Positions 54,293 to 57,967 of a stretch of DNA of 64,000 nt are shown piece after piece. The translations under genes and the position numbers were made by a program. The DNA is from Schizochytrium sp. TIO01 (lineage: Eukaryota; Sar; Bigyra; Thraustochytrida; Thraustochytriidae), in contig SMSO01000031.1 in assembly GCA_004764695.1 (NCBI GenBank), positions 4,759,048 through 4,823,047 of the forward strand. Reading direction: 5' to 3'. Position 1 is the first letter of the stretch. Each line of letters begins with the position of its first letter. Below the pieces are notes generated by a model. The model was not told the DNA's origin. It searched no databases and saw only the letters and a program-made list of their open reading frames with translations.

Positions 54293-57200
54293 CTAGAGCT
54301 TTGCTGAAAAGGCACGCAGCGCAACAACAAAAAGCAAGGTTGCAGCTGCAAACCCAGTGAGGGTCCTAGAACGAAATTGGGCGTGCTCCATGGATGCTGC
54401 AGCGGCATCCTGGGCAAGTATCGATGCGCATACACCAGCAGGGATTTCTGCGTTGTCATCTAGTGCAGGCAAGACATACTTATCAAGCCATGCCTCTTGC
54501 TCATAAACAGTATGAAGAATGGACTCCTTCGCCGTGTAACCGTGGCCCTCGTAAGGAAGGAGGACAAGCTTGGTGATGGCGCCATGGCCCTTGAGTGCAT
54601 CATAGAGGCGTTCAGACTGAATTGGAAAGGTACCTGGGTTCTCATCTTTAATTCCGTGAATCAAAAGCAACTTGCCAGGTCCTTTGGCAATTTTAGGAGC
54701 ATGAGAGAATGGGGAGAGCTTAGCGTAGGTATCTGGTGCCTCCCAATAAGTGCGCTCCTCAGCCTGAAATCCAAAGGGTGTCAGGGCGCGGTTGTAAGCT
54801 CCAGATCGAGCAATACCTGCACTGAAAAGGTCCGTGTGAGCAAGCAAATGTGCTGTCATAAAGCCACCATAGGAATGCCCACCCACGGCAAAGCCACCTG
54901 GCTTACCAATCTTACGATCAAGGAGAAGGCGTACCGCGGCTTGAGCATTGGCCCGCAGCTGCTCAATGAAAGTATCGTTGGGTTCTACATTGGGATCTTC
55001 TGCAACAATCGGGCTAGAAAAACCGAGAACAACCCAATCTTTGACGACCCAGGTGACTGGGCGAGACCAAGATGTGCGCGTAAAAAGATAAGGAGAGGTT
55101 TTTACCTGACCTGCTGTCTTGGTCGATTTAAACTCGCGAGGGTAGGCCCACAAGAGGCATGGACGAGGACCATCGCGCTCAGGGTTATAGTTCGGAGGCA
55201 AGTACAAGTTTGCGGTCAAGTCAATACCGTCATCGCGCTTGTATTTAACAAGCTCCTTTTGAACTCCAATTAATGAGGGCTGCGGGTGCTCATGTTGAGT
55301 GAGACGCCATTCTTTTCCAGATGGAAGATGGCGCCAGTAAAAGTCAGGAGGTTCATCGTTTGATTCACGACGCAGCATCATCCATTCGCCACCCGGGAAG
55401 ACCTCTTCAGGAGCTTCATAAACTGCCTGGCGCTTCTCTGGAAGCTTGTTACCAGGTTCTCTACTAAGATCTACCAAGTTTTCGTCAGCATCAGGTCCAA
55501 GTGCAGAGCGCCAAATATGTTCGATACGAGTCTGTGAAAGATCCCCTTTAGGGTTGATCCAAAGACGATCATAGAATGGGCGACTGCCTACAGGACTCGC
55601 ACCTGCGCCAAGAACCTCGAAAGCAATCTCTCCTGCCTCATTTTTCTTTAATGACTGTTGCAAAAATGCCACTCCAAAAGAGTCAGAATCCACTTGCATC
55701 GAACCAGTTGATGCATAAGCGTCATCAGAGCTTCGTTCAAACATGAGAGTCTTGTCCTCGTAAGAGCCGTCAGCCTTCTCGCGCAGAATCCACTTGCGAA
55801 CACTGCGTGTCTTGCGCCATGACTCAGAGACAAAAACTAGTCCTGCGGATGACTTGGACCAGCTTAATCCAGCAGTTCGGAACTCAAGCTTTGTAATCAC
55901 GCGCACGTCAGGACTTTCCAGAGGGTTCTCGTAAAAATCAGCAAGACGGAAAGGAGCAGAAAGCTCGCATATAGCATCACGCTGAGAGGCCTCATTCTTC
56001 GGGTTTCCACCGTCCAGTGCATAAGAGAAAACTAGGGTAGCAGGGCGCTGCCAGTGCCAACCAAGTCCGCGGGGTCCTGGAGCGCGGGCATCGAAAGAAA
56101 TGACCATGCCCTCTTCATCCGGCAAATCCACAACTGTGTGGACCTTGGCAATCTTAATTTCATCCGGGCGCGGAGCTTCGTTCTTACGCAAGAGTTCTTC
56201 TGCGCGCAGTACCATACTTTTGTGGCTTGCATAGAGTTTAGCAAAGGACTCATTTGACTCATCAATATCAAGCCAGCGAACAGACTGAGCATCATCACCT
56301 GCAGCTAAGGGGATGTTCTTTCCTAAGTCTTCACTGCAATGAAAATGGACAAATGAACTTTCCATCCATGCGTTGTCAGTGTTACGAGGGTCATCTACAT
56401 ACCCACGGTAGATCTCAGTGCCGTGCTCAAAAAGTCCGTCAACTTTAGCACGATGTGCCTCTGCTTCTTCCGGGCTCATATCAAGATTGCCAGCCTCTTC
56501 CATAAACTCGCGTTTCATTGCTGCTGGGACCGTCTCACCAGGATCAACCATGCCACCGGGGATTGCCCAGTGTCCGGTGTCTCGGCGTTGAATAGCTACC
56601 ATTTGCAGCATATTAGGGTCATCAGGGGAGAATCGCGTAACAATAGCATCTGCGGCATGGTTAGGACCCCATTTCCCAAGAAGGCCTCTGCCCACCATAC
56701 CTGTGCGGCCTACAGGGTTGATAGGCTTCCCATTGACGATAAAAACTTTGCCATGATAGGTAAGTCGATCCTCAATTTCAGCGAGATCCATGTCATTTAC
56801 GTCAGGATCCGCCCATCCACCTTGTTTTATCTTGTAGTTGTTATCAATAACAGCCTTGTGCGTAAATTCTACTGGACTGTACTCCTTGTCTTCTTCTTCA
56901 AAGCTTACTTGTTGAACTTTAGCACGCTCTGGATATGCTGGGTGACTTCCCATCGCTGCCTCATGCGTACTTGGAGCGGGGTAGGTGGAAAGAGGTTTTT
57001 CAAGGGTCCATAACTGGACAGATTTAGGGAACTTCGAGTAAGGCAATGTCCAAGAGAATGGCTTTGCAGTAAGGCTTACTAGAAATTGCCGTTTGTTCGG
57101 CGAGAGGGATATCGAGCGGATCATAGCCCCGCCTCGCGAGGGGCGGAGCACGGTCTCGTAAACCTCCTCATTTGCACCAAACTGCAGCAGAACAACTTCC

Positions 57201-57967
57201 GATGTAGTATAATATTCAAAGAGTTCCTCGTCACGCTTGGATGAGATGAGGCGTTGATAGGTTCTTGCAGGGGCTTTATTTGTGGAAAGGTTCTCCTTCA
57301 CGTTGGGTCCTCGCGGAACAGTCTCTTCTGGAGGAGGAGGACCTTGATTTTCCGGTACGCACATAACCATGAGGCACGAGCCGTCACCAATGAATCTTTG
57401 CGGAGTCAGCGTGATTGCATTCAAGGTTCGACTCGCCAGGAGGGGCTTTGCCAAGAATGTAGGTGACAGTTCATCGCCCGGCTTTGGAAAGTTCACAACA
57501 AAGAGCCTCAGTGTAAAACCATCGCCATCAGGAACTTTCGCGGTAAAGCTTAATCGAAGATTGTCTTGACCTCCTCCCCAACGAAAGTATCGAAATCCAA
57601 CTGCATTTTCAGGAAGGCCTTGAATGATAGCGTCCTCGGGCTGATCTTCGATGCCCACAGGAGTGGCTTCTTGGGCTTTCTCACTTGGCTTGTCACCTTT
57701 CTCCGCAGGACCTTCTCCTGTAAAGAGACGGCGAATGCGAATCTCATTCGCAAAGTGGGCTTTGTGCGGCGTTCGCAATTTGGGGTCAAAACAAAGTCCA
57801 CCAGTTTCGACTAGGGGTCTTGAAATATCTGCGATCGTGAAAGCCAAAGCCTTGTAGCTCAGGACGACAGCCCAGCAGCCATCCGGATCCAAAATGAGGT
57901 GTGGTTCCTCTTCAATGTCCAACACACGCTCCAGCGCCTCGCTGGGGCGCTGATACTCGTCTCCCAT
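54293..57967 (-). CDS. Glutamyl-endopeptidase-like S9 peptidase with inserted NUDT9-type Nudix domain and C-terminal anchor
   Basis: A single exon encodes 1,224 residues from the ATG at 57967; upstream the frame has only a GTG. Residues ~1-330 are the first part of an S9D (glutamyl endopeptidase) beta-propeller, ending in FPKSVQLW. Residues ~400-600 are a complete NUDT9-type ADP-ribose pyrophosphatase, with GRTGMVGRGLLGKWGPNHAA, the Nudix box from Gly472 to Gly493 and YVDDPRNTDNAWM. The box fits GX5EX7REUXEEXGU, including the REF element. The propeller resumes at VVDLPDEEG (~612). The alpha/beta-hydrolase domain follows, with Ser1032 in GGHSYGG, Asp1108 in IHGIKDEN and His1142 in YEGHGY. The last ~24 residues form a hydrophobic segment, so the protein may be tail-anchored. 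Plant S9D relatives act in chloroplasts, but no transit peptide is seen here. Both activities look intact. Confidence 0.93.
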   Translation of the reverse strand: MGDEYQRPSEALERVLDIEEEPHLILDPDGCWAVVLSYKALAFTIADISRPLVETGGLCFDPKLRTPHKAHFANEIRIRRLFTGEGPAEKGDKPSEKAQEATPVGIEDQPEDAIIQGLPENAVGFRYFRWGGGQDNLRLSFTAKVPDGDGFTLRLFVVNFPKPGDELSPTFLAKPLLASRTLNAITLTPQRFIGDGSCLMVMCVPENQGPPPPEETVPRGPNVKENLSTNKAPARTYQRLISSKRDEELFEYYTTSEVVLLQFGANEEVYETVLRPSRGGAMIRSISLSPNKRQFLVSLTAKPFSWTLPYSKFPKSVQLWTLEKPLSTYPAPSTHEAAMGSHPAYPERAKVQQVSFEEEDKEYSPVEFTHKAVIDNNYKIKQGGWADPDVNDMDLAEIEDRLTYHGKVFIVNGKPINPVGRTGMVGRGLLGKWGPNHAADAIVTRFSPDDPNMLQMVAIQRRDTGHWAIPGGMVDPGETVPAAMKREFMEEAGNLDMSPEEAEAHRAKVDGLFEHGTEIYRGYVDDPRNTDNAWMESSFVHFHCSEDLGKNIPLAAGDDAQSVRWLDIDESNESFAKLYASHKSMVLRAEELLRKNEAPRPDEIKIAKVHTVVDLPDEEGMVISFDARAPGPRGLGWHWQRPATLVFSYALDGGNPKNEASQRDAICELSAPFRLADFYENPLESPDVRVITKLEFRTAGLSWSKSSAGLVFVSESWRKTRSVRKWILREKADGSYEDKTLMFERSSDDAYASTGSMQVDSDSFGVAFLQQSLKKNEAGEIAFEVLGAGASPVGSRPFYDRLWINPKGDLSQTRIEHIWRSALGPDADENLVDLSREPGNKLPEKRQAVYEAPEEVFPGGEWMMLRRESNDEPPDFYWRHLPSGKEWRLTQHEHPQPSLIGVQKELVKYKRDDGIDLTANLYLPPNYNPERDGPRPCLLWAYPREFKSTKTAGQVKTSPYLFTRTSWSRPVTWVVKDWVVLGFSSPIVAEDPNVEPNDTFIEQLRANAQAAVRLLLDRKIGKPGGFAVGGHSYGGFMTAHLLAHTDLFSAGIARSGAYNRALTPFGFQAEERTYWEAPDTYAKLSPFSHAPKIAKGPGKLLLIHGIKDENPGTFPIQSERLYDALKGHGAITKLVLLPYEGHGYTAKESILHTVYEQEAWLDKYVLPALDDNAEIPAGVCASILAQDAAAASMEHAQFRSRTLTGFAAATLLFVVALRAFSAKL

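Follow-up and report, generated by a model that had tools for sequence, protein, structure and literature searches.

Does one reading frame of the thraustochytrid Schizochytrium sp. TIO01 encode a single protein in which an ADP-ribose pyrophosphatase lies inside a peptidase, and if so, what might be gained from such an arrangement? The frame lies in a 64-kb stretch of genomic DNA (the window), on the minus strand; it starts with an ATG at 57967 and its stop ends at 54293, giving 1224 codons within a stop-to-stop frame of 1265 amino acids. It is uninterrupted, as the first-pass annotation had stated, and third-position GC across three segments of the gene is 0.495, 0.42 and 0.449. Scans of the window with Rfam and for tRNAs gave no match. 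Ten tandem acyl-carrier domains point to a thraustochytrid-like host; a search for elicitins, aimed at an oomycete identity, gave no match, and neither did its control. The features of the gene are collected in Table 1.

Table 1. Features of the gene, with positions in the window.
Feature	Position	Strand	Basis
Complete coding frame, read as a single exon; 1224 aa + stop	54293..57967	minus	ORF reading
Residues 1-320: N-terminal stretch and first S9D propeller part, through FPKSVQLW	57008..57967	minus	phmmer, 10eq_A
Residues 205-228, inside counterpart of CGEP dimerization loop (I276-D315)	57284..57355	minus	ungapped alignment
Residues 321-613: insert and linkers, 293 aa	56129..57007	minus	comparison with 74 relatives
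Residues 347-587: NUDT9-type ADP-ribose pyrophosphatase core	56207..56929	minus	match to human NUDT9
Nudix box GGMVDPGETVPAAMKREFMEEAGN, residues 471-494	56486..56557	minus	residue alignment
Residues 614-1172: remaining propeller and alpha/beta-hydrolase catalytic domain	54452..56128	minus	phmmer, identity to S9D
Hinge-loop start WAYPREFK (W940, Y942, P943)	55127..55150	minus	alignment
Nucleophile motif GGHSYGG (Ser1032)	54863..54883	minus	alignment
Catalytic Asp1108	54644..54646	minus	alignment
Catalytic His1142	54542..54544	minus	alignment
C-terminal extension 1173-1224, with Glu1174 and Glu1194, end -AKL	54296..54451	minus	
Hydrophobic stretch 1202-1220 in C-terminal extension	54308-54364	minus	Kyte-Doolittle

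The identity of the two enzymes was established by comparison to solved structures and to domain families. With phmmer, residues 116-323 and 610-1172 match the chloroplast glutamyl endopeptidase of Arabidopsis (CGEP, an S9D peptidase; PDB 10eq and others, PMC12871690), with an E-value of 9.7e-139 for the whole sequence against 10eq_A. The matched parts of that chain are 144-334 and 339-865, so that just 4 chain residues separate them. Between the two halves, residues 347-587 match human NUDT9 (1q33, E 4.7e-56) over 18-271 of its 292 chain positions, which takes in both the N-terminal binding region and the Nudix domain. In Pfam, NUDIX (50.9 bits, residues 443-583) and Peptidase_S9 (71.2 bits, residues 1009-1165) score above cut-off. 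The Pfam scan of the whole protein (E up to 1) returned five families, none of them a TRP channel or melastatin family and none the M49 zinc peptidase; an NCBIfam scan returned 12 families, none close to cut-off. The structure matches confirm the S9D and NUDT9 assignments made at first pass.

The insertion site was examined by comparison to bacterial S9D relatives, for which 80 loci were kept from at least 564. Six of the 80 (L041, L042, L053, L078, L080 and L091) were dropped, having no open frame with GGHSYG. In all 74 readable relatives the stretch at this site is 11-12 residues long, compared with 293 here; none of the 74 carries an insert at the homologous position. With the peptidase halves flanking the NUDT9 part, these lengths bear out the view that the architecture is an insertion and not an end-to-end fusion. 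The precise location is another matter. A loop between blades had been proposed, but the order at the site (SPNK and the strand FPKSVQLW, followed by the insert in place of the DxxGK of relatives) reads, by the logic of blade sequences, as the c-d hairpin within one propeller blade. In the S9 topology the face bearing the c-d hairpins points away from the peptidase domain, and the insert probably does likewise. This weakens the earlier suggestion that ADP-ribose gates the peptidase chamber, at least in its direct form, and makes two enzymes on one scaffold the likelier arrangement.

The Nudix part is 52% identical to human NUDT9, 51% to Nematostella TRPM2 and 45% to the choanoflagellate TRPM2 chanzyme. 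Ten functional positions were checked by alignment, and all ten are identical to human NUDT9. Nine (W385, D440, R486, E487, F488, E490, E491, R528 and D559) also match the choanoflagellate enzyme, where roles are described for W1264, D1330, E1386, R1428 and D1460 (PMC11479946); a role for the Glu-Phe pair is given in PMC4917252. The tenth, Met473, occupies the ADP-ribose-stacking position, which is Phe in the chanzyme and Met in both human NUDT9 and Nematostella. The Nudix box thus retains REF (R486, E487, F488) and both glutamates (E490, E491), as first described, and the catalytic base D559 is present.

These residues bear on the possibility that the insert is an ADP-ribose sensor, in which binding or turnover alters the opening of the cap and switches the peptidase, much as NUDT9-H took on the gating of TRPM2 in vertebrates. 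The insert is indeed located in the cap; for CGEP, a gate formed by the hinge loop and activity only in the closed state of the cap have been proposed (PMC12871690), and in vertebrate TRPM2 the NUDT9-H domain has come to serve in gating (PMC11479946). However, on becoming a sensor the human TRPM2 domain lost the counterparts of chanzyme E1386 and D1460 (PMC11479946), and this protein retains both, E487 and D559. This makes the Nudix part look like an enzyme, apparently a nearly complete and working one that degrades ADP-ribose. With the hairpin predicted to point away from the peptidase domain as well, we consider a sensor unlikely. Similarly doubtful is a more general ADP-ribose-linked protease, in which the NUDT9 domain of the cap would sense or destroy ADP-ribose, free or on glutamate-modified peptides, and so direct a Glu-specific peptidase.

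On the peptidase side, the catalytic order Ser-Asp-His is kept (S1032, D1108, H1142), and the triad is as complete as had been noted. CGEP cuts after Glu (PMC12871690), and the triad together with the Glu-pocket hinge residues W940, Y942 and P943 is identical in CGEP and in 34 of 34 bacterial rows. The motif around the active serine, GGHSYGGFMT, differs from the S9D motif GGHSYGAFMT (PMC12871690) by a single Ala-to-Gly change. Residues 614-1172 share 44-49% identity (mean 46%) with 34 bacterial S9D sequences, and the C-terminal part is 43% identical to CGEP. Matches to CGEP on either side of the insert would fit an S9D-type eight-bladed propeller cap. The dimerization loop of CGEP, I276-D315, is named in PMC12871690 (CGEP number equals chain number plus 54, derived from S781); one dimer-interface residue is altered, V832 of CGEP being Ala1082 here.

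Given two kept active sites, it might be supposed that their substrates are coupled: ADP-ribosylated peptides would be cleared by a Nudix domain that trims the ADP-ribose and a peptidase that, like CGEP, cuts after glutamate. Glutamate is one acceptor residue of ADP-ribosylation. NUDT9-type enzymes, however, are known for acting on free ADP-ribose, and no sequence feature indicates a conjugated substrate; we hold this coupling to be distinctly unlikely.

The N-terminal part of the propeller has diverged further, with 24-31% identity to the 34 bacterial sequences (mean 28%), and in a tree of 36 rows, which settles no origin, the S9D half sits on a long branch (1.97). Loss or change of peptidase activity is therefore possible, and in the extreme case the propeller would be a mere carrier for the pyrophosphatase. 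The retention of the triad and of the hinge-loop Trp, Tyr and Pro argues against this, and we give it very little weight.

Is the gene itself sound? Two objections anticipated at the outset, that the Nudix part is spliced out or that an assembly join lies at the domain borders, look unlikely from the sequence. The window contains no N, and the longest exact direct word common to the two 100-base border stretches is 6 bases. Eighteen frame-keeping GT..AG pairs occur in the tested border zones, where the best donors agree with the consensus at 7 of 9 letters, and 6-7 of 15 letters in their acceptors are pyrimidines. None is a convincing splice pair, and an "intron" spanning the Nudix part would need to contain a complete NUDT9 coding sequence in the same frame. 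Imperfect repeats occur between 53900 and 58500: three direct pairs of 23-26 bases, 73-80% alike, and a single inverted pair. Some touch both linkers and other places, and we read them as chance. That two separate genes were joined by an artefact of assembly or splicing is highly improbable: the gene is known from the sequence of one assembly and weak repeats touch its linkers, but the frame runs stop-free over both borders and the peptidase halves flank the insert at a homologous point.

Searched without intron modelling, the 64 Mb genome holds no other NUDT9-like place above 19.2 bits and no second place matching the C-terminal S9D part above 35.8 bits; this copy search covered the Nudix part and the C-terminal S9D part, not the N-terminal propeller part. 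Against viral contigs the whole protein gave no match, six short peptide patterns only, and the S9D alignment gave 31 pattern matches and no relative. NUDT9 was found, as a weak partial match, in one of 8 S9D-bearing bacterial genomes, and in none of 395 genomes of one bacterial phylum (E 1e-15, a search without positive control). Among plasmids it was found in 49 of 72,556 records, 40 of them Streptomyces, and among phages in 1 of 50,697. Open-licence literature yielded nothing for NUDT9 with glutamyl endopeptidase or with thraustochytrid, avian eggshell work only for NUDT9 with oomycete, and guava fungus work only for Nudix with prolyl oligopeptidase and domain architecture; the portions of PMC13143021 and PMC5389931 consulted name no NUDT9-peptidase protein. 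We conclude that this is a pairing of two known enzymes, with no second case in the bacterial, viral, plasmid and phage sequences and the literature searched.

The C-terminal extension provides a further clue. In CGEP it is self-cleaved after Glu946 (PMC12871690), whereas here it carries a hydrophobic stretch at 1202-1220 with a Kyte-Doolittle mean of 1.79. The protein is probably tail-anchored, which leaves room for the earlier idea that both activities are placed on one membrane; under the doubtful reading of an ADP-ribose-linked protease, self-cleavage after Glu1174 or Glu1194 could free the enzyme from its membrane tail.

Accounting for these features, the reading we favor, and think reasonably probable, is one bifunctional protein, an S9D glutamyl endopeptidase whose beta-propeller cap has taken up a NUDT9-type enzyme at the outer hairpin of a single blade, with shared location and dosage as the most likely gain and no direct gating. 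The propeller would fold around the insert and the protein would dimerise like CGEP, with its Nudix domains facing away from the peptidase and both activities running. The Nudix reaction would be the Mg-dependent conversion of ADP-ribose to AMP and ribose 5-phosphate. A short hydrophobic tail may hold the protein, facing the cytosol, on an organelle membrane, and the only NUDT9-type enzyme seen in the genome would then ride a peptide-degrading dimer and remove ADP-ribose there.

Such a protein would combine proteolysis with the turnover of ADP-ribose in a single chain, through insertion of a domain into a moving cap. It offers a natural test case for the question whether NUDT9 domains can influence partners that are not ion channels, and it places an S9D peptidase in an apparently plastid-less protist; thraustochytrid-like protists are not among the S9D holders named in PMC12871690.

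Comparison with known systems puts the architecture in context. With CGEP the protein shares the triad, the hinge Trp, Tyr and Pro, the dimerization-loop stretch and a C-terminal extension, but CGEP has no Nudix insert and is plastid-targeted. Human NUDT9 is a stand-alone mitochondrial enzyme, whereas the NUDT9-type part here sits inside a peptidase. Phage-like multidomain proteins from IMG/VR (loci L102-L106) likewise hold a NUDT9-like domain within a large protein; in L102 and L103 the matches are to ADP-ribosyltransferases and head proteins, with none to S9D. In the TRPM2 chanzymes (Nematostella, 6co7; choanoflagellate, 8sr7) the NUDT9 domain is also joined to another functional protein, but by C-terminal fusion to an ion channel and not by insertion into a beta-propeller. 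NUDX3, the Nudix-dipeptidyl peptidase III of plants, reportedly treated by Karacic in 2017, combines Nudix and peptidase in one chain, as here. The statement at first pass that no peptidase with a NUDT9 domain is known needs the addition that Nudix domains of another type do have a plant precedent in a peptidase chain. In the excerpts available, residues 1-160 of the moss protein are a Nudix part that precedes an M49 zinc peptidase (PMC9079729), and the Nudix part of the plant enzyme, with 2FKB as template, acts on isopentenyl diphosphate (PMC6412517). As far as those excerpts go it is not NUDT9-type, and plant Nudix-dipeptidyl peptidase III is, on the same accounts, the nearest precedent.

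The protein is encoded by a single open frame of 1224 codons, read on the minus strand from 57967 to 54293 of the window. In a phmmer comparison with solved structures, the Arabidopsis chloroplast glutamyl endopeptidase CGEP, an S9D enzyme, was matched by residues 116-323 together with 610-1172 at E 9.7e-139, and human NUDT9 by residues 347-587 at E 4.7e-56. On the CGEP chain the gap between the two matched halves is just four residues (334 to 339). A Pfam scan agreed, with NUDIX and Peptidase_S9 families each above cut-off; no family passed the cut-off in an NCBIfam scan of the protein. 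These scans bear out the first-pass annotation's assignment of the two parts to the S9D and NUDT9 types. On sequence grounds we hold the two-enzyme architecture to be close to certain: this is a real, if unusual, protein with two apparently intact active sites.

The window contains no N bases, and the longest exact direct word common to the two 100-base border stretches is 6 bases; weak imperfect repeats of 23-26 bases occur inside the gene, some of them touching the linkers. The border zones examined contain eighteen frame-keeping GT..AG pairs: the best GT donors agree with the consensus at 7 of 9 positions, and the 15 positions ahead of the AG acceptor include 6-7 pyrimidines. Third-position GC across the three segments is 0.495, 0.42 and 0.449.

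The point of insertion was located by comparison with the 80 top-ranking bacterial S9D loci out of 564 or more; 74 of these were readable by script and six were dropped. From the FPxxVxxW-type stretch to the next D(L/I)P-type stretch the spacing is 11 residues in 61 of the 74 and 12 in the other 13, as against 293 in the protein under study. This difference upholds the earlier reading of an insertion rather than an end-to-end fusion; the surplus of about 282 residues amounts to most of NUDT9 (chain 18-271 of 292) plus short linkers. The same annotation had placed the insert between blades, and here the order of motifs points elsewhere. The protein runs SPNK, FPKSVQLW, insert, KIAKVHTVVDLP, against a consensus in relatives of SPDG, FPxx strand, DxxG, then a strand and LP stretch. 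Because SPDG and DxxG are the a-b and c-d turns of one and the same blade in S9 and TolB-like propellers, we infer that the insert occupies a hairpin inside a single blade, about the fourth by count. In the POP topology the chain goes into the propeller from the peptidase side via an inner strand and exits by an outer one, so these turns, and hence the insert, should point away from the peptidase domain.

By alignment, the CGEP triad Ser781, Asp855 and His889 corresponds to Ser1032, Asp1108 and His1142, and the hinge-loop residues Trp689, Tyr691 and Pro692 to Trp940, Tyr942 and Pro943 (roles in CGEP follow the available text of PMC12871690). All six positions are identical in 34/34 diverse bacterial S9D rows, selected out of 67 frames of 780-900 aa. 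The triad is complete, as first proposed. Among three CGEP dimer residues, Trp and Phe are retained and Val832 is replaced by Ala. For the NUDT9 part the reference was the chanzyme, a choanoflagellate TRPM2 with a NUDT9 domain, in which W1264, D1330, Phe1372, E1386, R1428 and D1460 contribute to ADP-ribose or Mg binding or serve as the base (PMC11479946, available portion). Five are retained, as W385, D440, E487, R528 and D559; the adenine-stacking Phe1372 is Met473, a Met also present in human NUDT9 and Nematostella. The Glu-Phe pair described as critical to NUDT9 activity in the accessible part of PMC4917252 is found as E487-F488. By eye, the insert resembles the NUDT9 domains of two phage-like IMG/VR loci (L102 and L103) in having YPER and GGWADP and in the short loop that follows TR, a loop that is shorter or longer in animal sequences. 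The NUDT9 part may represent an older NUDT9 form.

The start ATG lies just upstream of the conserved S9D beginning, and no targeting peptide was seen by eye at the N-terminus; there may be an exon upstream. A pyrimidine-rich run with a terminal CAG, noted by eye 5' of the ATG (about 58032-58070), may be a 3' splice site, either of an intron in the 5' leader or of an upstream exon. At the other end, the final 52 residues extend beyond the CGEP-matched stretch, include a hydrophobic stretch (1202-1220) and finish in AKL, which we take to resemble a peroxisomal PTS1 signal. Tail anchor and PTS1 are alternative readings of this sequence, of which we prefer the anchor. Self-release from it is conceivable, because CGEP sheds its C-terminal tail by autocleavage after Glu946 (PMC12871690, available text) and, in the present protein, Glu1174 and Glu1194 follow the catalytic domain and precede the hydrophobic stretch.

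Features of the C-terminus and of the neighbouring genes
Feature	Window positions	Strand	Basis
AKL C-terminus, directly after the hydrophobic stretch	54304-54296	(-)	sequence
TauE/SafE-family transporter gene, first of two close together	49646-50605	(-)
TauE/SafE-family transporter gene, second of the two	52340-53296	(-)

As to mechanism, we lean towards a peptidase and an ADP-ribose pyrophosphatase that would act independently on a common scaffold. Gating of the peptidase by ADP-ribose seems unlikely, and an enzyme acting on ADP-ribosylated peptides slightly more so.

The host genome comprises 64 Mb in 37 contigs; GC in the window is 44.6%. With introns not modelled, the insert as protein query found itself and one place at 19.2 bits, and a query with the C-terminal S9D part alone found itself and places at 35.8 and 17.9 bits. 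Such searches thus showed no further NUDT9-type gene and no further close S9D gene. The wider families number 18 Nudix and 11 S9 matches; two of the Nudix matches, at C6:1052900 and C14:12800 (contig handles), have equal score and frame length and are perhaps a duplicated or allelic stretch. Seven of ten nearby frames scanned had a match at E 0.001; besides the two transporters they include a glycerophosphodiester phosphodiesterase and a NIPA-like transporter, and the neighbourhood looks ordinary. Elsewhere in the genome, ten consecutive acyl-carrier matches fall in one frame (C4:611495-614707), an arrangement characteristic of thraustochytrid PUFA synthase.

The S9D-NUDT9 pairing was absent from the 74 bacterial S9D loci read and was not found in viral_contigs by searches with a few short patterns. 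NUDT9-like matches under 60% identity occur in 49 of 72,556 plasmid records, 40 of them Streptomyces (for example NC_023497.1). Other large proteins with NUDT9-like domains are TRPM2 and the phage-like multidomain proteins of five loci (L102-L106). The two of these scanned, L102 and L103, carry ADP-ribosyltransferase matches beside the NUDT9-like domain, an odd pair in that one protein holds domains that add and destroy ADP-ribose; a match to the head protein VG15 is above cut-off in L102 and below it in L103. The closest earlier example of a Nudix domain combined with a peptidase, in the available text of PMC9079729 and PMC6412517, is the plant Nudix-DPP III protein, which joins the two in one chain.
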